Shown here one piece after another: positions 12,973 through 50,814 of a stretch of 64,000 nucleotides of DNA. This DNA is from Bedellia somnulentella. Its lineage: Eukaryota > Arthropoda > Insecta > Lepidoptera > Bedelliidae. The stretch covers positions 19,019,423 to 19,083,422 of the forward strand of contig OY755176.1 of assembly GCA_963576735.1 (NCBI GenBank). The letters run 5' to 3'. The stretch's first letter is position 1; every line of letters begins with the position of its first letter. The position numbers and the translations under genes are program-made. The notes beneath the pieces are model-generated. The model saw only the letters and a program-made list of their open reading frames with translations. It did no database searches and had not been told where the DNA came from.

Positions 12973-13103
12973 GATATCACCCACATTCAAAAATACTAAT
13001 TTAAATTTTCATAATAAAAAACTAGTAGTGCCATCTTTACAAATTTTAGTGAACTATTAGAAATTATTTCACGATTTTGTTATTTATTAAATTATAAATC
13101 ACT

Positions 13104-14104
13104 ATGCCTAAGTGTCCTAAGTGTTCAGCGTGCAAAAAAGTGACACAGTTACGTACAGATGGCGCTGAATGCCACAAATGTCGATTAGTTTTTCATCGTG
13201 CCTGCGTCGGTCTACCAACTTCGAAACCAATCGCATCTGGCTGGGTTTGCCCGGAATGTACCCGGATAATACCACGCGATAACGGGTCTGAAACTCCGGT
13301 AAAAGGTATTCTTGGGTATGAGCAGCCGCCAGCATGTACAAGAGAAATCATTTCCCAAGTGGAAGACCAAGAGGAGGAGGAGGGAGATCATTATGATGAG
13401 CGGCAATTAACGAAGGGACAAGACACCGGGTTGCGCGATGAAATTAGAATACTGCGCAGTGAGCTCGTTAGTTTTAGAACGGAATTTCGATTTTTCCGGG
13501 AGGCCATCACGACAATAAATGATAGACTTGATCAATTTGATCAAAGAGTGAAAGCAATGGAGAAGCGTCTTTTGGACAGTAGTGTATCCAGCGGTACAAA
13601 AGCTCTGGAAGAGGCTGTAGAAAGTCTCCAACTCCAACTCCATGAGCGAGACCAAGATACTCTTGCAAACGACGTCCAAGTGTCTAATTTGCCGGAAGAG
13701 AAGGGTGAAAGTCCCATTCATTTGGTCACTATTGTGGGTGCTAAACTGGGAGTAAAACTAGACGAGCGAGACGTGGTGAGTGCGGTGCGCATGGGGCTGC
13801 CGCGTGACGGCGGCGCGGCTCGGCCGCTAGTGGTACGGCTGATACACCCGGGACGAGCTGATACGCGCGGCGCGGCGCCACCACCGCCGACCTGGGGCTG
13901 GCCGGCCCGCCCACCAGGTTCTACCTCAACGAGCGGTTGACTAAACATAACAGAGGACTATTCAACCAGGCTCGAGAGCGTGCACGTGCGGCTGGGTGGC
14001 GGTACGTTTGGACGCGCGACGGTCGGGTGTGCGCCCGCCAAGCCGACGGTAAGCCTGTAGCCAGGATCCGACGGGACTCAGACATTGCAGATATTTTTGG
14101 TTAA
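13104..14104 (+). pseudogene. LINE ORF1: PHD-finger/coiled-coil protein, frameshifted
   Basis: The first 278 codons are open. Residues 4-52 form a PHD-type Cys4-His-Cys3 finger (CPKCSAC, CHKC, FHRAC, WVCPEC). Residues about 112-160 form a coiled coil (LRDEIRILRSELVSFR onward). The protein then leaves frame: the conserved C-terminal part reads RDELIRAAR in a second frame near 13852-13878 and LGLAGPP, FYLNERLTKHNRGLFNQAR and RRDSDIADIFG in a third frame ending with TAA at 14102. Two small indels in a very GC-rich stretch (13840-13890) therefore break it. The ORF1 of CR1-like elements binds RNA and packages the template. Confidence 0.75.
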
Positions 14105-14722
14105 CCTTAGGTTTGGTGGCAATAGACAATTTCACGTTAATGTGGAGGCATTTATTTTATTAGTGTATAATGATAGATATGCCATTTTTTGTTTTTATTT
14201 ATACTGTGTCACACATAAGCTGTTAAGCACCTTGTTTTTTAGTTTCTTTTTATATTTTTCATTTTTTTTCTTAGTTATAGAATGTTACGTTTATTATCAT
14301 ATTAATTGTTTCACTGCATCAGTCGAATTAATGTACAGCACACCACTTTGCAACAAAACACGCACAGTATTTACAACATGGAACACACATGTATTACAAC
14401 CTGTAAATAAAACAAAAATGTTTTATTTTTTCTTAATGTTAAAGATAGACCTTTTCAGTATCATAAAACCGAATTTTGAATTATTTACAACTCTATATGT
14501 ATATTATTTTCTAAACATATGTATGTACAAAAATGTATATATATTTCATACAGCTGCGTGTATTACACATATTTTATACATGTATATTTGTCTATTGAAC
14601 ATATGTATCGACCCATTTCCCCATAATATAAAATTATATGTTTTTAAATATTATTATTTATTTAATAGGTATATTACTGGTTTCATATATTTTTATCCAA
14701 ATACATCCTTGGACCAACACCA
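14105..14722 (+). other. ORF1-ORF2 spacer with a long open frame
   Basis: No recognised domain. A Phe/Tyr/Cys-rich frame from 14085 to 14735 is open for 216 codons through T-rich sequence. It overlaps the end of ORF1 and the start of ORF2; probably a composition artefact. Confidence 0.35.
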
Positions 14723-17538
14723 TGACGCGTATTAAAAATATGCAGTTTGCATTATTTAATGCTGGTTCATTGAGCACAGGACATGACGAGTTAACTTCTA
14801 TTATACTAGACTTAAGACCTGACGTAGTAGCTATCAACGAGACTTGGTTAAGGGCGGGGCGCGATGACGTCGCCCCGGTAGTACCTGGATATAGACTTAG
14901 ACACGTCCCGCGACCTCCAGGTCAGCGTTCGCGGGGGGGAGGGGTGGGGTTTTATATGCGAGTTGGTTTAAACTGTCGCGTCTTCCATCACCCACCATCC
15001 TCTATTGAGCAAATGTGGTTTCGTCTCAACGTGAATGGTATTCGGCTTTTAATAGGTACGGCTTACCGCCCTAACTGGGTCGACGCTGATAGTTTCTTTG
15101 ACTCAATTACTGAAACTATAACATCTTGTAATTACGACAAACTTGTTTTATTGGGTGACTTTAACATTAATATTTTTGACGTGAATGACCGTAATCATCG
15201 ATATCTGACTCAATTTTTGAATACAATTAACTTGAAACAAATTGTAAATAAACCAACTCATTTTACTGACCATAGCGAAACGACTATTGACCTAATATGT
15301 ACTGACGCTCCTGTGCAAAGTGTTGATGTCCATCATATTCCTGACCTGGGACGACATGCTTTTGTTACTATGCAGATCGACTTGAAAAAACCTAAATATA
15401 TGCCTAAATTAATAACTTACCGACCATTGACTGACATTGACTTGGATATGTTTAGAAAGGATGTTGCAGAAATAAATTGGGAGTCAATTATGCTTAAAGA
15501 TGATATTGATGATATGCTGGCAGTTTTCAATTATCACATTATACAGCTATTTGATTTACATGCACCTCTTAAATCTATAGTGGTAAAAGAAGGACCGAAG
15601 CCGTGGTTGACTCCTACCGTGAGGTATATGATGAGATTACGGGACAAAGCACATGAACAGGCTAAACGGGAAAAAAGTGAGTCAAGCCGACAATACTACA
15701 AAAGTGCTAAGCATTTAGTAGTAGAGGCAATTCACAACGAAAAACGAGCTTTTTTCAAACACTCCATTAACGATTGTGCAGGCGATCCTCGAGCCCTATG
15801 GAAAAATCTTAAGCGTTCCATTATTCGAAACAAACGTGAATGTGATCTTCCACCACAATTTAACTGCCCGGAACTAATTAATAACCATTTCTGCAATATT
15901 CCTGGTAGTAGTGGCGTGAGTATATCTGATTTGACCTTTTTTGAATTTAATCGATTTGGACACGATTCTTTTTCACTGACTACTGTGACTAGTGAGACTG
16001 TTTCAAATATTGTTAATAAAATCAAAACAAAGGCTAAAGGACTTGATGAAATTAATATTGACATGCTACTTCTAACTTTTCCTACTACACTTGACGTACT
16101 TACAGCTATAATCAACAAAAGCATTGTCTCAAGCAAATTCCCGACCATTTGGAAAACGGCCAAAGTAACTCCTCTTCCAAAAAAAAGTAACACAATCCTT
16201 ATTTCCGATTTGCGAGCAATAAGTATCCTTCCATGCGCATCTAAGATAGTGGAAAGGGTGGTTTGCAATCAGATGACAGAATATCTAGAAAAGAATAAAA
16301 TTTTGCCGGAACACCAGTCGGGTTTTCGAAAGGGTCATTCCACCGCAACAGCGCTAATTGATGTTGTTGATAACATTTTGAATGACAGGGATGAAGGATT
16401 TAGTACATTGTTAGCGTTGTTGGACTTTTCTAGAGCATTTGATTGTTTGTGCATACCCCTGACGCTTTCGAAGTTGTCGTACTATGGCTTTGATGTCAAT
16501 ACTGTTCGTTGGTTTGACAGTTATCTCACCGACCGGAAACAATTTGTGGCGTTGCAAAAAAGAGATGGCAGTATATGCAACTCCTCTGAAAGTCATCTTA
16601 CGAGAGGCGTACCGCAGGGTTCGATTTTGGGACCTCTTTTATTTATAGTCTATACCGCCGATCTGGTTAATCAAATCAATAATAGCCGATAGCACATTTA
16701 TGCCGACGATGTCCAAATATATGTGTCTGGTCTGCCGAGAAATACTTCAGAAACGGTTGAAAAATTAAATAGTGATTTAAATAGAATTGTAAGTTGGTCT
16801 GAGAAAAACTGTTTAGCCCTTAATCCTCTCAAATGCAAATTTATGGTCCTTGGAACAAATACTCAAATTCATAATACGTTGGAAGTTCTTGCGGACCATG
16901 ATGTAGCTATCAGGGACCAACCACTAGAGAGGGTAGAGGAGGTTCGCAACCTTGGCCTGCTGATGGATGGGGAACTACGGTTCGAAAACCATATCTCATC
17001 AGTAGTGAGTAACTGCTTCTATCGTCTCAAGGTTCTTTATAATATACGCGATTACCTAAGTGTGGATTTGCGTATCTACCTTTGTGAATCGCTGATATTG
17101 TCGAGATTAAACTATTGTGATGTGGTCTATGAGGGTTGCATACTGGCTCGTACACAGAAATTGATACAGCGAGTGCAAAACGCATGTGCCCGTTTTTGCT
17201 TTCAAATCCCTCCTCGCTCCCACGTTACCCCGTACTTGGACGATGCAAAGCTGCTAAAAATGCAAGCGCGGAGACGACTACACCTCGCCACATTGTTGTT
17301 TGGAGTTGTTAGGCTAGAATCACCGGCTTATTTGTATAAAAAACTGCAATGGTCCAACAGTGGCTATCAGTTCAAAGTCAGGGCGATCTTGCCAATGCAC
17401 CGATCCGCAGCTTTTAGAGGTTCTTTCAGGTTTGCAGCGTCCAAGTGCTGGAACGTACTTCCTCCACCAATTCGGGATGTGTTCGGCAGGAACATCTTTA
17501 AGCGTAAGCTGAAGGAGTTTTTGCTGGCACATCAGTAA
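14723..17538 (+). pseudogene. LINE ORF2: endonuclease and reverse transcriptase, one in-frame stop
   Basis: The likely start is the ATG at 14723 (MTRIKNMQFALFNAGSLS), although the frame is open from 14638. Endonuclease motifs: LFNAGSL, INETWLR, YRPNW, LLGDFNIN and TIDLICTD. RT motifs: ISILPCASKIVERV, HQSGFRKGHSTATALIDVV, LLDFSRAFDCL, RGVPQGSILGPLLF and the catalytic YADD (16699-16710). A TAG at 16690-16692, two codons before YADD, interrupts an otherwise continuous frame that ends at 17538. The single lesion suggests recent insertion. It would encode target-primed reverse transcription activity if intact. Confidence 0.85.
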
Positions 17539-30232: not shown

Positions 30233-31639
30233 TTAACTTATTATATTAAGCAATTCCTCTGATTCCGTGTATGTAAGATTTAATAGCCACGATTGAAGTT
30301 TTTTCTTGCATTCAAAGTTGTTTAAGTTATATAATACTAGTAATCTATTAATTTTATTATATAAGTATGGTCCTAAAAATATAAAGAATCTATTTGTAAT
30401 GGAAAATTTTGCACTATAGGTATTCAAACATACTATATCCTTTCGCCTCCTGTTTAGTGTATCAGTGTTGAAGTATAAGCTAGCATGCTGTTTTAGAACA
30501 GTGAATAGAATAAAGAGCTGACGCACAGTTAGCACTTTGCATTGTTTATATAGTTCGGTAGTAGGGAAATAGAAAGGGCGCGCAGTAGCTACTTTAAGTA
30601 GCGCTCTTTGAGCTCGTTCTAGTTTTAACATAGTGGTTATGCCAGCACCTCCCCAAGATTTTATGCAATAAGTCAGTAAGGATTGACCGAGCGCTTGATA
30701 GATTTGCTTTGTTAAAGCGTAGTCACATATGTGTCTCAACTTTTTAAATATTACTATAAGTTTTCTAATTCTATTACACAGTGCATTAATATGGACCTTA
30801 AAAGTTAAAGTAACGTCGAGAGTAATTCCAAGATATTTGATGTTCATTGCTTTGGAGATAGTTGAGCATAGGCATGGTGCGCTATCAGTGCAAGTGCGGT
30901 GATGTGCATAAAGCGGGGTGTTAGCGAGTAATGGTGTAGAAGTGTTCCTTGCGAAAATCATATACATAGTTTTATCAGTGTTCAAGGACAGAAAATTATT
31001 AAAAAGCCAGTCATTCACAATACTAAAGCCAGATTGAGCGAATTTATAAGCTTCGTCTATTGTTTTTGCAGAAAAAAGTAAGGCTGTGTCATCTGCATAT
31101 GAAACTATGGTGCCGTTATTAAGTTGGAGATTACATAGCTCATTAATATAAATCAAAAATAGGCTGGGTCCTAAGATACTACCCTGAGGGACGCCATAGG
31201 GGTGGTTTTTTGAAAATGTGCTATAATTGTCTCCAATTTTTAGGCACTGAAGTCTATTACTAAGATAACTTTCAAATAATTTTAACTGAGTATCCCGAAT
31301 GCCGATATTTTCTAATTTTTGCAATAAAATTGGAATTGAAATTGTATCAAAGGCTTTTTTGAGGTCGAGAAAAATCCCAATAACATGCATACCTTTGTCC
31401 AAATTTTGCACAATTTCATTTGTAAGGCAATGGACTGCGTCATCAGTAGATAACTTTTTACGGAAACCGAATTGACAACTTGAGAGAAAGGATATTTCAT
31501 CTAAATATTTTATTAACCTACTGTTCATTATTTTTTCCAAAATTTTAGAGAAAGTGGGAAGAAGAGAAATCGGTCTGTAGTTATTTGGTTGGTTTTTATC
31601 CCCCGATTTATAAATCGGAATAACCACAGCTTTTTTTAA
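30233..31639 (-). pseudogene. Jockey-like ORF2, 3' part (reverse transcriptase)
   Basis: Starts at the TTAA target (LKKAVVIPIYKSGDKNQPNN). RT motifs: NYRPISLLPTFSKILEKIM, CQFGFRKKLSTDDAV, IFLDLKKAFDTISI, YGVPQGSILGPSLF and catalytic SYADDTALLF; the thumb and C-terminal region follow to the stop at 30233. The upstream part of the same ORF is at 34822-36345. Reading across one copy of TTAA keeps the frame (ES-LKK), so the element was probably intact when piggyBac landed. Confidence 0.85.
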
Positions 31640-34600
31640 CCCTATACTTGACATTGTGAACTTAAATGCACAAAACATTCTGAAGAAAAAATTGGGCTAA
31701 TATTATTATGCAGTCGTTTATTTTCGCACGAAATTGTGGTTTCCGAACGCTCCTCTGTGTCAGAAAAAAATATTATGTCCGTCTCGCTCACGCTTGGTCA
31801 GTGGTGATCAAAATGGCGATCCGTCCGGCTGCTCCCACGCACTTCAAGGTAAATATCGATTTTTATCCAGATTTATCTTACTTATTCGATTTAAAATGGC
31901 CTATTTTTACATTCAACAAACCATAGCCTATTGTTGTGTAGAAATATTTTTGTGAAATATGCTTTCAATTTGTCAGAATTTAGAAGTTTTTTATAGTGTG
32001 CATTTAAATACACACCGCTTGATGCTATGCGATTGACACATTATTTGCTACGTGTATTTAAATGCACACTGCCTTATCTACAGTGATGCCCCGTTTTTAA
32101 GTTATGTATCTTTGAATGCACACTGCCTTACTTATGGGGTACAACATTTACCTAATAATGTATCCAATAATGCACATTGCCAGCAACACGACCGCTTATT
32201 TAAAAACACTAAACTAACTATAGTAATACTATAGTAAACTAACTATAGTAAACCCTAAAAGTGACATACCTAAAGCCTAACACCACAACGCAAATAACAA
32301 TTCACCCAACCCACATCGCTTAGCTTGCACTGCTTTCTTTTCAGACAACAAGATCTCAAAAAATACTTGCTTTGGTGCCCAAGTCCGGAGCTAAATCAGA
32401 TGAAAGCTCCAGCGAATCTTCGGAAGATGAAGTCAAAAGGTGTATGACGCGTCCCTATGCCTCAGACGAGAGTTCCCCGGTGCGATCATTGGCGTCTTCT
32501 GTAGAAAACATAAACATCTCCGATAGTGATGACGGTGAGTATCGAGAAGTTTACACCATTGCTGCCATCCACGAAGAGCCGTTGTTGCGACAAGCACAAC
32601 CTATCTTACGTCCGAAAAATGTGATGGATTCTACTCCAAACTCACCCTCAATTCTTCAATGTGATCCTGACATAATACCACCGTCACCATCCGTGTACAT
32701 CCCACCGTCACCGTCCGTGGATTCAAACTGCAGCCCTGCACCTGCAGCAGAAACTACTACACCTCTTCGTGTTGGTCGTTCTAAGAAATCCCGGCTGATC
32801 GTAAAGAAAACTATCTTGAAACCGACCAAATTGTTTCCAAAATGGACAAAAGTGAAGTTGATTGGAACAGCAGAAATAGAAGACACATTGTTTGAATATA
32901 CTGATGTCGAGAAGTCACCGCTTGATTACTTCAAATTATTCATTTCGGATGACATCGTGGATTTGATTGTGCACCATACTAACCTCTATTCAGTGCAGAA
33001 AAAGGGCTTCTATAAATGTCACCAAAGACGAAATAAGAGATTTCCTGGCGATCAATATTCTCATGGGCGTAGTAGATATGCCGGCATATACTGATTACTG
33101 GTCTAATGATTTCAAGTATAGAAAAATTGCTGACGTGATGACGCTAAAAAGATTTCAGGCTATTCGTCGCTACATACATTTCAATGACAACATGAAAGAT
33201 GATGGCGATAGATATTTCAAAATACGGCCATTAGTGGAAAAACTCCGTCGGAACTGCGCAGCCAATATTCCTGAAGGGAAACGTTTCAGCATAGATGAGA
33301 TGATGGTGCCTTACAAAGGCACCAGAGCCGGCAGTCGAAAACAGTATGTCCGCAACAAGCCCAAAAAATGGGATTTCAAGATATTTGTTCGGGCTTCACC
33401 ATCTGGTCTTGTCTATGATTTCATCATTTATGGAGGGGACGACATTTTCCGACACCTAACTTTTACTACAAAAGAAAAAAGTATGGGTCTTGGCGCTAAA
33501 GTAGTAATTGCCTTAGCTAAATCCATAAAGCAAAAACCATGCTCGGTGCTGTACTTTGACATTTTTTTTACGTCCGTTGAGTTGCTGCATCATCTACGGA
33601 ATGAGTATGGGATATTCTCGCTGGGAACTGTCAGGGCAAATCGTCTCCGAGGGGCAGAAAAGAAACTGCCATCTGACAAAGAATTGAAGAAGAAAGGACG
33701 GGGAGCCTTTGCACAAGTTGCGTCCAACGAACACAATATCGCTGTAGTAAAGTGGTTTGACAATAAGTTTGTCTTAGCTGCAAGTACTTATGTCGATGCC
33801 CACCCAGTGCAGAATATAATGCGCTATAAGAAAGAAGAAAAGAAGAAGGGGCTAGTCTCATGCCCGAATATAATAAAGCACTACAATGCAAACATGGGTG
33901 GGGTTGATTTGGCCGATATGCTGGTGGCTTTGTACCGGACCGATTTGAAAGGTCATCGTTGGTATTTACCACTATTCTCGCAGCTTCTGGACATTGCTGT
34001 AAACAATGCCTGGTTGCTGTACCGCCGTGAAAATAGTGGTAAACAAAAACTGATGCCTCTCAAAAAGTTTCGCGTTGCGCTGTTTAGACAACTGTGTTGT
34101 TTTGAGAGGAGTTCACATGATCTACAACCGGGTTCTTTACCTAAAACTGTAAAAAAAGTAAAGAAGCCGGTTGCAGAAAGGCCTGATGATGCTACTCGCT
34201 ATGATCTCGTGGCACATGTTCCTACTTTTACAACCAAAGGCAGGTGTCGGAACTGTGCAAAAAACCAAACAAAACATTTTTGCCAAAAATGTAATGCAAG
34301 GCTATGTTTAGTTGAAGGCCGAAATTGTTTTGTAGATTTCCATACCAAGTAAATTATTTAAGACTGATTATTTTTTAACTCTACGACTGAATTATGTGAG
34401 AAAACGGATCTCAAATAAAAGATAGCTTAAATAGTAGGTACGTAGTTTCAAAGAATTTATATGGTGTTACCATACTTACTTATACTTATAAGTTCCTAAA
34501 AGATCTCAAGACCATTTTGTATGTTTAGTGATAAGTTTAAAACCTTTTTTATGAAACTATGTGATAGCTTGTTAAACTGAAATGTTTTGATTTTATGCAT

Positions 34601-34817
34601 AGGAGATATGGCAGTGTGCATTTAAAGACACTTGCTCTTATAATAGTTATGTTATTGTTACCCTGGCACTGTGAACTTAAATACACATATAATATCCTGA
34701 AAACTGAAATTCAGAGATTTTTTATTTAATTTTTCCTTACTTCCAAATAGTCCACTTATTATAAAAAAAAGGCAAAATCTATTTTTTTTACCATAGTAAT
34801 CTCTGCCAAGTATAGGG
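31640..34817 (+). mobile_element. piggyBac-family DNA transposon, 3178 bp
   Basis: TTAA at 31636-31639 and 34818-34821 flank ends beginning CCCTATACTTGACA (left) and CCCTATACTTGGCA (right, reverse complement), 13 of 14 identical. Subterminal repeats of the type GTGCATTTAAATRCAC occur near 32000, 32048, 32110, 32165, 34613 and 34670. It carries one transposase gene (31813-34352) with a probable intron and one frameshift. It lies in ORF2 of the jockey-like LINE. Confidence 0.9.
31813..34352 (+). pseudogene. piggyBac transposase, probable intron, one frameshift
   Basis: Exon 1 (31813-31848) encodes MAIRPAAPTHFK and ends at AAG|GTAAAT; exon 2 starts after TTTCTTTTCAG at 32345 in the same phase (TTRSQKILALVPKSG). 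The N-terminal part is acidic and Ser/Pro-rich. A one-base shift near 32998-33005 (within GCAGAAAAAGG) moves from SVQKKG to ASINVTKDEIRDFLAINIL. The DDE/DDD core follows: SIDEMM (Asp 33294), YFDIFFTS (Asp 33558), GGVDLADM (Asp 33906 and 33915), all Asp kept. A C-terminal Cys/His-rich finger (CRNCAKNQTKHFCQKC) precedes the stop. The N after the second Asp, usual in the family, is I here. The intact enzyme would excise and insert at TTAA. Confidence 0.85.
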
Positions 34818-34821
34818 TTAA

Positions 34822-36345
34822 TGACTCGGGGAATATACCTTGAGACAAACAATTTTGAAATATGAGAGTTAACGGAGGGGCTAGTATATCCTTACAAAAT
34901 TTCAAAACTTTACATGAGATGTTATCCCATCCGGGGGCACTATTACTTTTTAAGTTATTTATGATACCCTCTACTTCAGATACGTCTGTATCGATCATAA
35001 CAAACGATTTAAGCCTTGAAGGGTGTTTAGAATTAGCTTGATAGTATTTTTCAAAATTTGCCTGTTCAGATAAATTCTTACCAATGTTTATGAAAAAGTT
35101 ATTTATGAATTCCGCTGACTGTGTGGGAGTTGACCTTAGATTGAATAGTTCGTTAGGGATATCATTATGTTTTGTCGTGCAAGTCTTTTGTTTAATGAAA
35201 TTCCAAATTAATTTGTTGTTACTTCCCGCAGATTGAAGTTCTTTTTTCTCGTACTCACATTTTACATTTTTCAAAATTTTATTGCAAAAATTGCGATATC
35301 GTTTGTAAATAAGAATAATAGTATTGTTAGTAGGCTCAAGCATACACCTTTTGTGCAACTTATCTCTATGTTTTATGCATCTGATTAAGCCAGGAGTTAT
35401 CCAAGGTTTTATTATTTGGTACTTCCTGCTTTGACGAAACGTGCTTGTATTTTCCGCAATTGCATTTTGAACACAGTTAGTCACGTAATTCATAGAAAAG
35501 TTTACGTCAGTATTATTACAAACCGTGCTGAAATCCATTTGAATTAAATCACGTCTTACGTTTTGCATGTTAACACTAGAATAGCTGCGGCGGCATTTTT
35601 TATGAGTCAGCTTTAAATTCAATGTCAATACCACGGCGCGATGATCGGTAATAGTCGAGTTAGTAACAAATGTATGTGTCAGGTAATTCGTTTTTATCAT
35701 AACATGATCTAGACAGGATCCGCTGTTGTGAGTGGGAAAGGTATGGGCGGGTGATATTCCATGAAAAGCACATATGTTTAAGTATTCCTGGATAGAAGAA
35801 TCGTTGTTTTCTGTTATAATGTCAATATTCAAGTCTCCAGTTAAAACAATGTTTTTTGTAGAGGCGAAAGCATGTAGTATACTGTTCAAGGATTGTAAAA
35901 AATTATCAAGTTTGCGAAAAGATGGAGAGCGGTAAAAAGATAATATGACTAAGTCCTTACTTATCAGTCCTAGACAATTACTTTCATTAACACAAATTTC
36001 TTCTATGGTAAAGTTTAACGTATCTCGTACATATATTATAATGCCATCATTTTGGTTATGTAGTTTAGTTGAGCTGTGTAATTTGTACCCTGTGAGGGTG
36101 GGTAAACTATGTGCTCGGTTTTGTAACCAACATTCAGTCAAAATAATAATATCAAAAGGAACATTAAATCGAGTTAATAATATTAGAAAATCATCGAAAT
36201 TTTTGTGAATACTACGAATGTTTTGGGTTAAGATTTTAAGAGTACCTTTCTCATTACAAATTAATTGGCTACACAATTCAACATCACACGAGTGAGATTC
36301 ACCAAATTTTATATTGTCTAAGTCATATATAATTTGATGTGTCAT
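34822..36345 (-). pseudogene. Jockey-like ORF2, 5' part (endonuclease and start of RT)
   Basis: ATG at 36345 starts MTHQIIYDLDNIKFGE. Endonuclease motifs: LTQNIRSIHKNFDDF, ILTECWL, VLTGDLNIDI, SCLDHVMIK and TITDHRAVV. The RT leader WDNISCKVLK and IFPESL run into the TTAA at 34818-34821; past it the frame continues into piggyBac sequence for about 20 codons. The catalytic RT motifs are in the downstream block at 30233-31639. Confidence 0.85.
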
Positions 36346-36455
36346 TGATAAATAAACTAAAGAACGTTTAAAAATAAATGTAAAAAAGAAGTAAAAAATG
36401 TGAAAAGAAACTTAATTAATAAGTGCTTATAGATAATATGAAGATACGGGCGCTC

Positions 36456-36793
36456 TTAGGCGCCTTCATAGTTAATAGAATTTATATACCTCAATTCTGC
36501 ATTCTTCCTTGCTGGGCATTCAGGGTCTCCTGTAGGATGGTTACTCGTTTTTTTAAAACGCTTGCAGGTGGCACAGGTTGGTTCCTGAGATTTTTTAATA
36601 CACTCTTTGATAGAGTGTCCAGTCTCCCCACAATGGCCACAGACCTGATCAGCCTCACGACAAAACTTAGCTGAGTGTCCATATTGCTGACATTTAAAAC
36701 AACGGGTCACAAGGGTGAAGTCTCTTATTTTACAGGATGTCCAGTTAATGAAAATTCGCTTCTGATTCATGAGACATTTGCGAATTCCTGAAT
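36456..36793 (-). pseudogene. Jockey-like ORF1 C-terminal part (CCHC zinc knuckles)
   Basis: Three Cys-rich knuckles: CFKCQQYGHSAKFC, CGHCGETGHSIKEC and CATCKRFKKTSNHPTGDPEC, then ELRYINSINYEGA and a stop at 36456, 110 bp before the ORF2 ATG. The frame stays open to the truncation point near 36793, so the N-terminal part was never inserted. It would be the nucleic-acid-binding Gag-like protein. Confidence 0.8.
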
Positions 36794-36800
36794 AATGGAT

Positions 36801-37611
36801 AATGGATGAAAGATATTTTTTATTAAATAAAATATGTCATGGATGGATGGAGGGATGGAAAACCTAGCGTGGTTTGTCGTTACATTAGTAATTGAGAAGA
36901 CGTGCTACGATTTATTATTGTAAGAAATGGCCAAAAAGTGTTTTTTGTGTGATTCGAATGATGGTGTTATTGACTTTAATGATGAAACTTTTAAAAACTG
37001 TTTATTAAAGTTAGCTTTTCGTAAAACTAAAAACTTTAAATACAATATTGTTGAGCTAACTAGTGCGTCACTTGATTTTATAGGTTACCATACCACATGC
37101 TATAAAAAAGTGACTGCCTTAAATAAAAAATATTATGAAGAATTTGAAAATTTTTGTGCTGAGAATACTGTAATAATACTTTTAAAAATTCGACAACCGC
37201 AATTCAGGACTGATTTTTTGCAGACAACCCTATACCACCGTGTTCGTAATAAAATTATCTTTATTTTTATTTTAGTTTAATTCATTAACCAAACCAGTGC
37301 AAGTTACTAGTATCGATTTACCTGTTTATACCTGCCAACCCAAGAGTTGTGACGGGAAATAAATAGACAACCTAACGTTTGTATATTCTATAGGTTTCAT
37401 ATTTTCGATTGGAATAGAATTTGTTCATTAACGAAGCCAGTGTAATTGAAAAAAAAATGATTTTTTAATTATTAATTAATCATACTCTGGACTGAAATTT
37501 TTCAGACAACCCATTCGCAATATATTTATTGCCATATTTTATTTAATAAAAAATATCTTTCATCCATTAACCAGCCCGGTGAAGGTCGTCTTATAGCGGG
37601 ATCTTAGACTA
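36801..37611 (+). other. Right portion of the TIR transposon with 140-bp subterminal repeats
   Basis: Three copies of CATTAACCARRCCRGTG start at 37283, 37426 and 37565, each preceded by CAGACAACCC-like sequence (37224, about 37370, 37504): tandem units of about 140 bp reaching the terminal repeat. Confidence 0.65.
36927..37280 (+). CDS. Zinc-finger-like ORF of the TIR transposon (117 codons)
   Basis: MAKKCFLCDSNDGVIDFND then NCLLKL and IGYHTTCYKKVTALNKKYYE: a possible C-x2-C ... C ... H-x3-C zinc-binding module at residues 5-60. Forms like this occur at the N terminus of some invertebrate transposon proteins, but I cannot name the family. The last 30 residues run into the subterminal repeats, so the true exon probably ends earlier. 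No transposase core is present in the window. Likely the remnant first exon of the autonomous element. Confidence 0.45.
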   Translation: MAKKCFLCDSNDGVIDFNDETFKNCLLKLAFRKTKNFKYNIVELTSASLDFIGYHTTCYKKVTALNKKYYEEFENFCAENTVIILLKIRQPQFRTDFLQTTLYHRVRNKIIFIFILV

Positions 37612-37959: not shown

Positions 37960-40900
37960 TTACAATATTGGTGTATGTCTGGAAATATCCTGAATAGAGC
38001 CCTGGTGACACCAAGCAGTTTCATCTATCATATAATCATTTAAACTATAATAAGCTTTTAAATGAAGACTGCGTTTTATAATTACTTTGAATTTCTTTTC
38101 TGTTAGATTCAAAATGTCATCAGGTATTTTATTATAAAATTTTACACATAACCCCATAAAAGATGTATTTATTTTTGACAATCTGTACTTTTGAATTGAA
38201 ATTTTATTATTATCTCTAAGACTTCTAGTATGTCTGTCACAGTTTTTGGAAAATGCTTTCAAATTTTTTCTCACATACATGATGTTTTCATAAATATATT
38301 GACATGGCAGTGTCATTATATTTATGGTTTTAAACAATTCTCTAAGGGAATCTCGTGAACCTAAATTATAAATAGCTCTTATTGCTCCTTTCTGTAAAAT
38401 GAATATTGACCCAACATCAGCAGCTCTGCCCCAGAGTAAAATGCCATAAGACATGATGCTATGAAAATAACTATAGTAAACTAAACGAGCGGTCTGTACA
38501 TCAGTTAAATGTCTTATCTTTCTAACGGCATAGGCAGCACTGCTTAGCCTGCCAGCTAGCGCGCTAATGTGGGGTCCCCATTGGAGCTTTGAGTCCAGAT
38601 GTATCCCTAAGAAAACTGCGCTATCCGTAAATGGTAATTTTTCATTATTTAATGTAATTTCATTATCAACACTTTTAACATTTGGTAATGCAAATTTAAT
38701 ACATTTGGTTTTTTTGGCATTTAGTACAAGATTATTTGAAGCAAACCATGTTTGAATTTGGGAAACTGCATTATTTACATCGTCAATATTTTCCGAATTC
38801 CTTTTAACGTCAAAAATTAAAGAAGTATCATCAGCAAATAATACTATTTCAGACCTTTTCTCGACCATGAACGGCAAATCATTAATATATACTAGAAACA
38901 AAAATGGGCCTAATATAGATCCCTGTGGAACACCCATTTTTACATGAGTTCCAGATGATTTAATTTTATCGATTTGCACTTTTTGTATTCGATCTGAGAA
39001 GTAGGACTTTATTAATTTAAGTGCGTCACCTTCGATGCCATAATGTCCCAATTTTATGAATAAAATATTATGATCTGCACAATCAAAAGCTTTTGTAAGA
39101 TCGCAGAACAAACCGATTGCATCATTCTTAAGTTCCCACGAACCAAAAATATGTTTAATTAGGGCAACGCCTGCGTCAGTGGTAGAGCGGCCTTTCGTGA
39201 AACCAAATTGTTTAGGGTGAAACAAATTGTTGGAACTAAAATGCAAGAGCAGTTGATTAAGCATAAGTTTTTCAAATATTTTACTCATAACTGGTAGTAT
39301 AGATATAGGCCTATAACCTTCAGGATTATTTTTATCACCTCCAGATTTTAGTAAAGGTACAATTTTACTATGTTTCATGAGATCTGGGAAGATACCATTA
39401 CTTATACATTCATTAAATATTTTCGCTAAATAAGGAGCTATTATTACAATAAAATTATGGCATACTTTTACTGACATACCCCAGATATCCTCAGAATTTT
39501 TCAATTTCAGTGATTTAAACACTTTAATGATATCTTCGGGACTGACAACTTTAAAATTAAATATAGATTTACAAATTGCAACGTTTTGTTGCAACAGCTC
39601 TTGAGCTAACGTAGCAGATGAATTTAAGTGTTCAGTGGTCTTAAAAGGTATATCAGCAAAATATTTTTCAAAAATACAAGCAATTACATCATTTGAAGTA
39701 GTCAAACCTCGATCAGACCGAATACAAAAGTCCTGATCACATGATTTGCTTTTGCCAGTTTGAGTGTTGATAATGTTCCAAACGGTTTTTACTTTATTAT
39801 CAGATGTTTTAATACGTTGGCTCAAGTATCTTGCTTTAGCCTCCTTACAAACTTTATTAAACATTTTTGAGTATTTTTTTACATATTCTATAAATTCATC
39901 ATTATGTGAGAACGCTTTTTGATCGTATAAATCAAATAGTATTTCTCTAGATTTATATATGCCTGGTGTTGCCCACTCACTAAATTTAAATTTATTACAT
40001 ATAGTTACATCTTTAATAGTAAATATTTTATTAAATTCGTCTATCAGTACTTTAAAGAAAGTATTATAACTATTATTTGGATTTTTATTTATTGAAGAAG
40101 TGGGCAGCTTATAACTGATTAAGTTTATATATTTTTCAACTTTGAAAGCAGTGACACTCCTTTTTTTAACTATAATTTTTCGGTCTGGTGCCTTATGTGG
40201 AAAGTTTACAAAAAGACCACTGTGATCAGATTTTAGTTTATTTATTACAGATTTACTTATGAATTCAGCATTTGTAAATACATTATCTAAACATGTTTTG
40301 GTTCTAGTAGGTTCCAAGAATAAATTTTCTAAATTAAACGATTGGAATAAACTCATCAACCGTGTTTTCTGAGTACTATCTTTTAAGAGATCTATATTGA
40401 AGTCTCCACAAATAATTAATTGTTTTTTACTCTTGAAAATTTTAGTTAATACATCTTCCATTACACTTTCAAATCTTTCATAATTTTGACTATAGGGGGC
40501 TCGATATACGCTTACTATAAAGTAGTTTAGTAACTCTATGCAGGATATCTCCACGACTTGCTCAACGCTCAGTTTTACAATATCCTCACGATTTTTACAT
40601 TTAATACTATTTTTTATAAATATAGCGGAGCCACCACAGGCTTTAGAATTGCGGCAGTAGCTACTAGCTAAGTTGTAATTTTGAAAACCAAATATGAGCT
40701 CGCAATTCTTAAGCCAGTGTTCTGAGACACAGAAACAATCAATTTGATATCTTTCTAAAAACAATTCAATTTCTAATTCTTTACAAGAAAACCCCTGAGT
40801 ATTTTGAAATACTAATTTAAATTGTGGGTCTCCTTGTAAAGCACGGTTTTTAAATATTTTGCCAGAAGAACCTCCTTCCTTGTTTACAATGTTAATATTA

Positions 40901-40961
40901 ATTGAAGGTGACGGCTTAAGGATGACAGGAGGCTCTTCTATTGTCTCACTTAAAAGTTTAA
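37960..40961 (-). CDS. LINE ORF-C: endonuclease and reverse transcriptase
   Basis: The frame opens just after the slippery site (next codons LLSETIEEPPVILKPSPS) and has no ATG before the endonuclease domain: FKLVFQNTQGFSCKELEIE, CVSEHWLKN, VYRAPYSQN, IICGDFNIDL, TCLDNVFTN and KSDHSGLF. RT motifs: GYRPISILPVMSKIFEKLM, KQFGFTKGRSTTDAGV, GLFCDLTKAFDCADHNIL, MGVPQGSILGPFLF and catalytic LFADDTSLIF, then thumb and connection to the stop at 37960 (about 1000 codons). The absence of an initiation codon and the -1 phase relative to ORF-B imply expression by frameshifting. No internal stop or frameshift is seen. Confidence 0.85.
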
Positions 40962-40962
40962 A
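40950..40962 (-). promoter_or_regulatory. Putative -1 frameshift site TTTAAAC at ORF-B/ORF-C junction
   Basis: In the ORF-B frame the heptamer reads T TTA AAC (40962-40956), then TTT and the TAA stop (40952-40950). Slipping by -1 enters the ORF-C frame exactly. Sixteen bases downstream AGAAGAGCCTCCT (about 40939-40927) can pair over 13 bp, with one G-U, with AGGAGGTTCTTCT (about 40876-40864). Confidence 0.65.
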
Positions 40963-41699
40963 TTATGGTTTCCACCATCACATATTGTAAGTAAGTTTTC
41001 CCTTATATTAAATAAGGGAGGGTTCGATATATGATATGCTAATAATTTAGCAATGGTACGTTTTTTATTTAAGGGTATGTATATAGTACCCGATCGTTGT
41101 CTTGAATAAGGTATGAACTTATTCACGTCCAGAGTAAAGAAAACGTCGCTTTGACGGCTGGTCATATTAAATATAAAATTATTCAACATATGAATATCAT
41201 TATTATGCTTACTCATATAATTATATATATATGGTAAGGTACAAAACATATGAATATCATTATTATGCTTACTCATATAATTATATATATATGGTAAGGT
41301 ACAAAATATAAACTTACATTTATATTTCTTTTGTATCTCTAAAAGCTGGCTAATGCCTTTCTTCAATATTTTTTTATTTAATCCTATACTACTACCGAAT
41401 AATATAACAATTGTAGTATACTCGTCATATTCACCCAAAGTAACTTTATCAATAATATAATTAAAGGGAGCACCAGTATAACAATAGTTTGTTACTGTCT
41501 GATGTATGTGATCATTTAATATTTCTCCGAAACGTAACCCCATACCATCGGAAAATATTATAGTTTTGCGAACCGGGGTGGTAGTGGTAGGGATGGATTG
41601 TTCTTTGTCTGATTGTAACGGCGGAGACATAAAGTTACAAGATTTTCCAGACAATTTATGACAATCCGTCTCTTTTTCTATTAGGTTACTTATATTCAT
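40950..41699 (-). CDS. LINE ORF-B: SGNH/esterase-like protein
   Basis: 249 codons. KTIIFSDGMGLRFGEIL (residues about 45-61) resembles block I of SGNH hydrolases as found in ORF1 of CR1/L2-type LINEs, but the usual Ser of the GDS motif is Gly here. TIVILFGSSIGLNKKIL and CKFIFCTLPYI fit the later strands. A 20-residue block (FCTLPYIYNYMSKHNNDIHM) is repeated head to tail. The start ATG overlaps the ORF-A stop (ATGA); the stop is one codon after a U UUA AAC heptamer. Esterase-like ORF1 proteins are thought to interact with lipids or RNA; activity is doubtful here. Confidence 0.65.
   Translation of the reverse strand: MNISNLIEKETDCHKLSGKSCNFMSPPLQSDKEQSIPTTTTPVRKTIIFSDGMGLRFGEILNDHIHQTVTNYCYTGAPFNYIIDKVTLGEYDEYTTIVILFGSSIGLNKKILKKGISQLLEIQKKYKCKFIFCTLPYIYNYMSKHNNDIHMFCTLPYIYNYMSKHNNDIHMLNNFIFNMTSRQSDVFFTLDVNKFIPYSRQRSGTIYIPLNKKRTIAKLLAYHISNPPLFNIRENLLTICDGGNHNLNF
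41183..41305 (-). repeat. 60-bp perfect in-frame tandem duplication
   Basis: Two identical 60-bp units (each containing ATATGAATATCATTATTATG in plus orientation) lie head to tail inside ORF-B and add exactly 20 codons. Confidence 0.85.
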
Positions 41700-41711
41700 A
41701 TACCTTTTTTT
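41696..41711 (-). promoter_or_regulatory. Putative -1 frameshift or restart site at ORF-A/ORF-B junction
   Basis: ORF-A ends GAG GTA AAA AAA GGT ATA TGA: the heptamer A AAA AAA is in the zero frame three codons before the stop, and ORF-B lies in the -1 frame. The ATG of ORF-B overlaps the stop as ATGA, so stop-restart is the alternative. Confidence 0.5.
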
Positions 41712-42340
41712 ACCTCTTCCTGACTAGCAATCATATTTTTTAGTTGGCTATTTAAACTATCGATTTTTTGAATTAAATTTATTTTTTTGTAGGTTTTATT
41801 AATGTTTCTAATACTATTTTTAATATTTATCAGATTTTTCGTTGAGCTATATATGCGTTTATTAACTAATTTATATTTCTTTATTTGCCTATGACTTAAT
41901 GATTTTTGATTCGCGATAGAATTCAAAGAAGATATTGACTCCACTTCAAGTTCTGCGCATAAAGAAAGTGCGTGAGAGTCTTCATTTATATCTTTAAGTC
42001 TATGAAACTCTGATAATTGAGCGTGTGCCTCTGCCAACTGCTCATTAAGGATATAAATTCGCTCTACGGCTATTTCATGTTTAGCGCACTGATCTTCATG
42101 AGATTTAATTATTAGCTGTTGTTTTTCCAGCTCTGATTGACACATATCATAAGATTGCCGAAGTAACTCCACTTTCTCAACGAGAGCACTATTTTTTGAT
42201 TTTAAATTACGAATAGTGATACAGTTTTCGTCACGTTCTTCTAAAAGCCTATTTTTTAAATCCTCCGCATCACAAAATTCTCTTTTGAGTTTTTCATACT
42301 TTTGTTCAGCAGCCATCCTACGAGTTGTTATTGATTCCAT
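41696..42340 (-). CDS. LINE ORF-A: coiled-coil protein
   Basis: 214 codons from ATG at 42340 (MESITTRRMAAEQKYEKLKR). Residues about 10-110 are a long coiled coil rich in Glu, Lys and Leu; the C-terminal half is basic (SHRQIKKYKLVNKRIYSSTK). No zinc finger. It occupies the ORF1 position, so a template-binding or oligomerising role is likely. It overlaps ORF-B by the ATGA at its end. Confidence 0.7.
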   Translation of the reverse strand: MESITTRRMAAEQKYEKLKREFCDAEDLKNRLLEERDENCITIRNLKSKNSALVEKVELLRQSYDMCQSELEKQQLIIKSHEDQCAKHEIAVERIYILNEQLAEAHAQLSEFHRLKDINEDSHALSLCAELEVESISSLNSIANQKSLSHRQIKKYKLVNKRIYSSTKNLINIKNSIRNINKTYKKINLIQKIDSLNSQLKNMIASQEEVKKGI

Positions 42341-49119: not shown

Positions 49120-50814
49120 GCAGAGGAGTAACGATCAAGTAGAAAATTATCACGAATTATTTAATAGTAAATTAAGGCTTATTCATTTCCCCAATGGTTT
49201 TTCTGATTGTAGTGATATACACTGTCTGTAATAACTGTGAGCACCGCCAACTGCTTGACCAAATGTACAACAATATTATCTCTAAACTGTCAGAGGCAGC
49301 GGCACAGTGTCGTGAGGCCCACGGCTCTGAAATCCGTGGTGGGTTGGAAAAGACATGTTCGGGAGGCGCACGAGCAGGCTAGGCTTAAGTATCGGTTGCG
49401 GCTATCGTATGACAAGCCTACAACCGGCCCTATTTACAGTGAAATGTATGAAAGTCGTAAATTATTTAAAAGTCGCTTAACGTGGTGTCAAAACCACGAA
49501 GAACAAATAAAGCTTGAAATCATTTCGACACAACGTGCTTCAAAGAATTTTAGCAAGTTTTGGAAATCCACCGGTAAACTGGATCTTAGGCCTGGCTTGC
49601 CCGTGACTGTCGGTAAAGCTCGTGATCCAGAGTCTATTGCCAACTTGTTTGTTGAACATTTTACTGTACACCCACCATTAGGCCGGTCCTCACACACTGT
49701 TGATAGTGGGCCTTGTCGTAACTCTGATATCATTCGATTCTCTGGTAATCAAGTGGCAAAAGTTATTAGGCGAATGAGCAGAGGAAAATCGCCGGGTCAC
49801 GACAGCTTAAGTATTGAGCACCTAAAGCATGCTGGTGTCCACCTACCACGCGTCCTCGCTATGTTCTTTTCACTGTGCATGGGGCACTCGTATCTCCCAC
49901 TCGAGCTGATGCGTACGGTAGTAGTGCCTATGATAAAGAATAGGACAGGTGATGTAGCCGACAAAAATAACTATAGGCCCATTTCACTGGCTACTGTTCT
50001 GGCTAAGGTGTTAGACTCCCTTTTAGACTCTCGACTTAATAACTATCTTCATCTCCATGACGCTCAGTTCGGGTTTAGACCCGGACTGTCTACTAAGAGA
50101 TCTGTCCTTGGTTTAAAGCACACAGTACAGTATTATGCGCGGCGCCGAACGCACGTATACGCATGTTTTCTCGACCTGTCGCTTGCTTTCGACACCGTGT
50201 CGTACGATGTGCTTTGGACCAAGTTACGCGAGAGAAAAGTACCATCGGAGCTTCTACGTATATAGCAGTATTGGTACGGTAACCAAGAAAACTGTATGAG
50301 ATGGGCCAATAAGTTGTCAAATGCCTATAAACTAGAATGTGGAGTGAGACAGGGGGGGCGTAGTTCTCCAAATCTATTTAACCTGTATGTTAATGACTTG
50401 ATCGTGGAGCTTAGCAGCAAGCGCATCGGTTGTCGCGTAGATGATGTTGCTGTAAATAATATTAGCTATGCTGATGATATGGTGCTGCTGAGCCCCACGG
50501 TCAAAGCTCTGAATGAATTGTTGCGTACTTGTGCAGATTATGCTTCCAAACATGGTTTGATGTACAATGTTAATAAGAGCGAATGTTTGGTCTTTGGAGC
50601 CGACGGGAAGAAAACCCCAGAAACTATACCAGCTATTAAATTAAATGAAGTGGTACTACGTCGCGTGACAAAATTTAAATATCTGGGGCATATTGTGACC
50701 GACGACCTCAATTACCAAGAGGATATAGACAGGGAACGCAGAGCGATGGCGGTTCGCTGTAATATGCTGATTCGTAGATTTACTCGGTGTAGCAAAGAGG
50801 TCAAAATAAGTCTA
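49120..50814 (+). pseudogene. RT polyprotein of that LINE, main block
   Basis: Linker region YHELFNSKLRLIHFPNGF near 49150, then frameshifts near 49215-49330. From 49340 the frame is open: VVGWKRHVREAHEQARLKYR, NFSKFWKSTGKLDLRPGL and RGKSPGHDSLSIEHLKHAG, then RT motifs NNYRPISLATVLAKVLDSLL, AQFGFRPGLSTKRSV, CFLDLSLAFDTVSYDVLW, CGVRQGGRSSPNLFNLYVND and catalytic ISYADDMVLLSP. One in-frame TAG at 50263-50265 interrupts it. It runs off at KISLS where the insertion begins. Confidence 0.8.

Follow-up and report, generated by a model that had tools for sequence, protein, structure and literature searches.

How a long interspersed nuclear element (LINE) makes its second protein from one RNA is understood for few elements only, and a LINE copy on the minus strand of a lepidopteran contig raises this question. 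The copy lies in a 64,000-nucleotide stretch of Bedellia somnulentella DNA (contig OY755176.1, positions 19,019,423 to 19,083,422; contig C7 of genome G000 in our numbering), hereafter the window, within a source genome of 549 Mb. A preliminary description had read the copy as three open reading frames (ORFs), ORF-A, ORF-B and ORF-C, each in the -1 frame of the one before and joined by two canonical slippery heptamers, and had likened it to a retroviral gag-pro-pol arrangement. On re-reading the sequence, the three frames and both heptamers are where that description put them, and the question becomes which of the two junctions belongs to the element and which to this copy alone. Here, we compare the copy with its relatives in the same genome and with database proteins, and the sequences point, with good confidence, to a two-ORF LINE that makes ORF1 and an ORF1-ORF2 fusion by programmed -1 frameshifting at a single U UUA AAC heptamer.

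The element and its copies

A DNA search with the reported stretch gave 463 candidates, of which the best-scoring 40 were taken as the sample for the window family, F1 (L001 to L040, the window copy being L001); as in all families described below, these are the best-scoring matches of one genome. One 95%-identical F1-like copy (L053) begins downstream of the junction and is excluded from the counts. Aligned parts of the 40 copies are 98.8-99.9% identical to the window copy, and by this sequence comparison F1 is a young family of very recent insertions. Its copies are dispersed, end at a common 3' end and are frequently truncated at the 5' end, and three Pfam families (PF14529, PF03372 and PF00078) exceed their cut-offs in ORF-C, giving an endonuclease and a reverse transcriptase (RT), all of which identifies a LINE of the apurinic/apyrimidinic endonuclease (APE) type. 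Presumably it is a CR1/L2-like element. We call ORF-C ORF2; of the 32 copies whose sequence extends to its end (L009-L040), 22 keep it open over 996-1000 codons. The main features are as follows.

43153 (5' end) to about 37773 (3' end, a short TATCTTT-like repeat), minus strand: whole LINE copy, from the commonest alignment ends among the other copies, the 3' end being read directly
40962-40956, minus strand: U UUA AAC slippery heptamer, the proposed -1 frameshift site, in 40/40 copies and recurring in families F2 and F3
40952-40950, minus strand: ORF1 stop UAA, one codon past the heptamer (UUU between), from sequence reading and the copies
40962-37960, minus strand: ORF-C, that is ORF2, 1000 codons in the -1 frame, with endonuclease and reverse transcriptase, from ORF reading and Pfam

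A conserved heptamer at the ORF1-ORF2 junction

At the second (B/C) junction, the U UUA AAC heptamer, the UUU and the UAA behind it are identical in all 40 copies. ORF2 lies in the -1 frame in every one of them, and this frame opens precisely at the heptamer in the window copy. The heptamer has the X XXY YYZ form in the zero frame and lies inside the -1 overlap, as a programmed -1 signal should. The preliminary description had also stated that ORF-C lacks an ATG ahead of its endonuclease domain, and this holds: in 34 of the 40 copies, the window copy included, ORF2 has no methionine codon until 166 codons beyond the heptamer, and in the window copy the endonuclease Pfam match begins upstream of that codon, at ORF-C residue 54. 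The exceptions are L003 (112 codons), L011 and L015 (6 codons each) and L027 (12 codons), together with L031 and L032, which have no ORF2 methionine before an early stop. No UAAUG, the overlapping stop/start of the SART1 type, occurs at the F1, F2 and F3 junctions read. This layout, with its retained heptamer, phase and stop and its missing AUG, is read directly from the copies.

From it we infer slippage, its frequency and a role for the downstream stem, as follows. Ribosomes would read ORF1, and most would end at its stop and release ORF1 alone, while a fraction would slip back one base at U UUA AAC and continue into ORF2, giving a fusion of about 1460 amino acids (...GGNHNLN-LLSETIEE...) with endonuclease and reverse transcriptase. 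Because non-slipping ribosomes would stop and yield ORF1 alone, the slip frequency would set the ORF1:ORF2 ratio, and a stem downstream would probably assist the slippage.

The same site in two further families

When the ORF2 N-terminus was used as a protein query against this genome, 131 matches came back, comprising, besides F1 copies, 28 rows at 76-78% identity, of which 12 were fetched as the sample of a second family, F2, whose ORF2 is 80.8% identical to that of F1 and which keeps both heptamer and stop in 11 of the 12 copies. A third family, F3, was found with a database protein, P0021, as the query, and 11 copies were fetched, of which 9 reach the junction and two (L058 and L073) do not. 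The F3 ORF2 is 53% identical to that of F1, and the ORF1 proteins of the two families are 25% identical in a five-sequence alignment, with different last residues. All 9 distinct F3 copies reaching the junction end ORF1 in GCU UUA AAC UAG, the same heptamer with the stop directly behind it, and no AUG precedes the F3 endonuclease. The heptamer and -1 phase, whose conservation across copies the preliminary description had named as the check on this junction, are thus retained throughout F1 and recur in two more families.

RNA structure downstream of the heptamer

40940-40927 and 40922-40918, pairing with 40881-40863 (span 40863-40940), minus strand: stem-loop, a candidate stimulator, found by folding and kept in F2

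The F1 RNA downstream of the heptamer folds at -26.4 kcal/mol (z -3.3; 0/200 shuffles as good) into a stem of 14+5 bp that begins 15 nt past the heptamer, with an AU-rich outer helix beginning 2 nt past it. F2 keeps the stem with a different loop (z -2.2; 7/200 shuffles as good). The stem arms are nearly identical between the two families, and stem-arm codons that encode the same amino acid in both show 0/13 synonymous changes, against 216/786 across ORF2 (P 0.015). Judged from sequence and folding, F1 and F2 are both likely to carry a stimulator.

Database relatives and the reverse transcriptase tree

Relatives of ORF2 with a named organism, three of the 120 proteins listed, come from Parnassius mnemosyne, Euphydryas editha and Manduca sexta, all lepidopteran. 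The closest 62 (P0001-P0062, about 38-59% identical) were seen as proteins only, and five of these, on inspection by eye, appear to span the site, the others starting downstream of it and being silent. Four of the five (P0004, P0021, P0027 and P0034) carry FKL there, which fits UUU AAA CUN at the level of protein without proving the bases themselves. An RT tree built from 76 sequences over 245 columns scatters these four through a 24-member clade to which F1-F3 also belong (support 0.88), and the fifth, P0047, falls just outside. We observed that P0047 (LFFSEVSLTKEK...) groups on this tree with P0053 and P0055, a neighbouring group with an ORF2 N-terminus that lacks FKL.

Further searches added no case: the F3 ORF2 N-terminus as query returned 8 proteins and no new one spanning the site, scans of viral contigs and genome contigs found no relatives, and a search for ORF1 homologues found none among 7996 candidates scored, a list perhaps filled by coiled-coil words.

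Points against frameshifting and competing explanations

Several observations weigh against -1 frameshifting at this site. First, when ORF1 codons were shuffled, any canonical heptamer appeared in the overlap with P 0.044 (F1), 0.041 (F2) and 0.092 (F3), so that the motif alone is not strong in an A-rich ORF1, and although the exact U UUA AAC gave P 0.0021, 0.0033 and 0.0046, respectively, all these values were calculated post hoc, and F1 is closely related to F2. Second, one F2 copy (L051) reads TTTGAAC, F2 has an AUG 8 nt after its ORF1 stop, and an AUG stands at the same distance in 2/40 F1 copies (L011 and L015). Third, stimulators of -1 sites usually begin 5-9 nt downstream, and the strong F1 stem, at 15 nt, is farther away; the F3 downstream RNA has no significant fold (z -1.0). 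Finally, P0047 spans the site without FKL. In these sequences, what carries the weight is that further families have this heptamer too, and not the motif itself.

The explanation that survives best beside frameshifting, unlikely as we consider it, is termination at the ORF1 stop followed by restart at a nearby downstream AUG or near-cognate codon, the mode used by SART1 and put forward for mammalian L1. The AUG of F2, and of the two F1 copies, is well placed for it, and the SART1 mechanism requires downstream structure (PMC5972666), so the strong stem of F1, which would serve either process, cannot discriminate slippage from restart. However, 38/40 F1 copies have AUA where F2 has its AUG just after the stop, F3 has no AUG that could serve ahead of the endonuclease, and restart leaves the retention of U UUA AAC beside the stop in F1, F2 and F3 unexplained.

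ORF2 might also start by itself, at a non-AUG codon or from an internal entry site, with the heptamer incidental. As far as the sequence shows, a non-AUG start may be used, and since these ORFs are A-rich, a heptamer of some kind arises in the overlap with P 0.04-0.09, which gives some room for coincidence, but the exact heptamer is far rarer by chance (P 0.002-0.005 per family) and recurs close to the ORF1 stop in families 53% identical, which makes an independent start quite improbable.

The first junction is a defect of the window copy

42340 (ATG) to 41696 (end of TGA), minus strand: ORF-A, the coiled-coil N-terminal part of ORF1, cut short in the window copy (214 codons), from ORF reading
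41723-40950, minus strand: ORF-B frame, the C-terminal part of ORF1, from ORF reading
41711-41705, minus strand: A7 run holding A AAA AAA, not a conserved frameshift site, from the copy alignment

The preliminary description had placed a second programmed site, A AAA AAA, at the A/B junction. Across the 40 F1 copies, the run there is A8 in 35, is equally long but with a G in place of one A in 2, and is A7 in only 3, namely the window copy, L002 and L009. In the remaining 37, ORF-A runs into ORF-B in one frame; a simple indel in this copy is what the preliminary description had named as contradicting it, and a slippery site here was rejected as a feature of the family. The ATG is present in 29 copies, and in 21 of these ORF1 is uninterrupted from there to the UAA that follows U UUA AAC, over 463-465 codons; the other 8 are the A7 copies, three in number, and five that carry different lesions (L014, L015, L027, L029 and L031). 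The sister family F2 has no A-run at the corresponding place (one copy, L045), and in F3 ORF1 is continuous (L062 and L063).

We also considered, and rejected, an A7 lineage within F1. Because the three A7 copies have no other minority substitution or deletion in common (insertions were not part of the comparison), A7 looks, on sequence, like repeated homopolymer loss or an assembly error. The A/B split is accordingly read from the copies as a one-base defect of the window copy, which probably yields little ORF1-ORF2 fusion, its ORF1 being interrupted. A three-ORF element with two programmed -1 sites describes the window copy as read, and the same form occurs in L002 and L009, but it is hardly credible for a family with A and B in one frame in 37/40 copies, relatives (F2 and F3) with a single continuous ORF1, and no significant fold past the A-run (z -1.4).

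The gag-pro-pol comparison falls with it, as neither a second conserved site (in the copies) nor a protease family (when the three frames were scanned with Pfam) was found. Since the A/B frames are joined in the family, the three predicted products, A, A-B and A-B-C, reduce to ORF1 and ORF1-ORF2, a gag-pol-like arrangement with a single site.

Related families with a +1 layout

A search with another relative, P0063, gave 46 matches, and besides F3 these comprise seven families (a-f and i), from which 20 copies were fetched from G000 (L066-L071, L074, L076, L077 and L079-L089). ORF2 lies in the +1 frame relative to ORF1 in all seven, and a zero-frame UUU CGN stands in the overlap in 19/20 copies, with UUU CAU in L074; one family reads UCC UUU CGU, which is the PA-X sequence. 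The zero-frame stop follows UUU CGN directly in c, one codon on in b, d, e and f, four codons on in a, and later in i. Each of families a-f has a single UUU CGN in the part of ORF1 examined, within the overlap, with a chance of 0.003-0.048 each, values that are post hoc and come from families with common ancestry; the overlaps computed for these six are 20-86 nt. By eye, there is no AUG between the UUU CGN site and the endonuclease in 6/7 families, family c having one.

The RTs of these families are 35-44% identical to that of F1 and 39-62% identical among themselves. Three database proteins (P0069, P0070 and P0072) show, by eye, matching F-V or F-D at their N-termini and lie inside the same RT clade of 11 (support 0.88), whose one other member, P0086, begins within the endonuclease and gives no information on the site. 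Taking both layouts together, we lean toward frameshifting as the general route of RT expression in this large insect LINE group, with clades that would differ in using -1 at U UUA AAC or +1 at UUU CGN, the ORF1 stop being close behind in most families.

By eye, the ORF1 proteins of the +1 families are of two seemingly unrelated kinds, one like the ORF1 of the window family (L066 and L068) and the other like LINE-1 ORF1 (L067, L069, L070, L071 and L076), both with UUU CGN. Pfam returned nothing above cut-off for the ORF1 of these families.

The ORF1 protein and other elements in the window

Intact ORF1 of F1 has 463 amino acids, and its C-terminal domain may be a non-catalytic, SGNH-like one. 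There (40953-41723), a Pfam match to OSK (Oskar) had an E value of 0.054, below the cut-off; an AlphaFold2 single-sequence model of ORF-B had a mean predicted local distance difference test (pLDDT) score of 46.6 and no Foldseek match at E 0.001 or better, and an ORF1 profile compared with PDB sequences found coiled coils only, leaving an SGNH identity unconfirmed. The ORF1 of the zebrafish ZfL2-1 type, a coiled coil with an SGNH esterase (PMC3905857), is similar in that F1 ORF1 too has a coiled coil followed by a domain with an SGNH-like order of elements, whose SGNH nature is unconfirmed.

41185-41310, minus strand: 60-bp in-frame tandem duplication in ORF1, two copies with a 98% match

Loss of this duplication was seen as an indel in none of the 39 other F1 copies, F2 and F3 are without it, and it may serve as a marker of the expansion of the young family.

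Elsewhere in the window, two overlapping frames, which we take by eye to resemble a piggyBac-type transposase, and further LINE pieces were seen.

32324-34352, plus strand: presumed piggyBac-type transposase frames
13098-17538, plus strand: LINE piece with, by eye, a PHD-like ORF1
30233-31696, minus strand: LINE piece
34759-36836, minus strand: LINE piece with, by eye, a zinc-knuckle-like ORF1
49492-50793, plus strand: LINE piece

Meaning and comparison with known systems

For a group of insect elements that inserted very recently, a conserved, sequence-defined recoding site offers a directly testable answer to how the second protein is made and, if the proposal is true, the balance of ORF1 to ORF2 would be fixed by a short sequence. 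In elements of this sort, ORF2 will be split or truncated by gene callers.

LINEs that frameshift have been reported or proposed before, with published cases from Dictyostelium and Paramecium. In the Dictyostelium elements TRE5-A and TRE3-A, ORF2 is stated to depend on a -1 frameshift (PMC5911963), and they resemble F1 as two-ORF APE-type LINEs with a -1 shift before ORF2, though in a different host kingdom; for Paramecium LINEs either +1 frameshifting or re-initiation has been suggested (PMC5405496). A 2016 review of recoding states that frameshifting is necessary for the gag gene of HeT-A and that it is not understood how the TART polyprotein and L1 ORF2 are expressed (PMC5009743). Apparently unpublished are a conserved canonical site in insect elements and opposite shift directions in related clades: among titles and abstract openings, a coverage that most subscription papers and all bioRxiv preprints lie outside, we found no LINE with U UUA AAC or UUU CGN frameshifting.

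The silkworm element SART1, also a lepidopteran two-ORF LINE with structure downstream of the junction, uses UAAUG coupling that needs this structure and makes translation of ORF2 dependent on ORF1, and termination-restart has been proposed for L1 (PMC5972666, PMC2881922). Unlike SART1, with its overlapping UAAUG, F1 has no junction AUG in 38/40 copies, and has the heptamer and a -1 ORF2 instead.

For the +1 families, UUU_CGN +1 sites are known from influenza PA-X and from amalgaviruses, which share with them a zero-frame UUU CGN in the overlap and a second ORF in the +1 frame (PMC3498833, PMC5052127). The families differ in being LINEs and in overlaps of 20-86 nt, compared with 287-968 nt in the amalgaviruses of PMC5052127. 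If both modes are true, opposite frameshifts in related clades would offer a view of how recoding signals arise and replace each other.

The heptamer U UUA AAC itself belongs to the canonical retroviral and coronaviral class of -1 sites. F1 differs from those systems in being an element without long terminal repeats, in having one site and no protease found by Pfam, and in a strong stem that lies farther downstream, and it resembles them in the X XXY YYZ form, in the -1 overlap and in a predicted fusion of a structural protein with a polymerase. By analogy, the slip in F1 would work, from its single site, much as frameshifting controls gag-pol in retroviruses.

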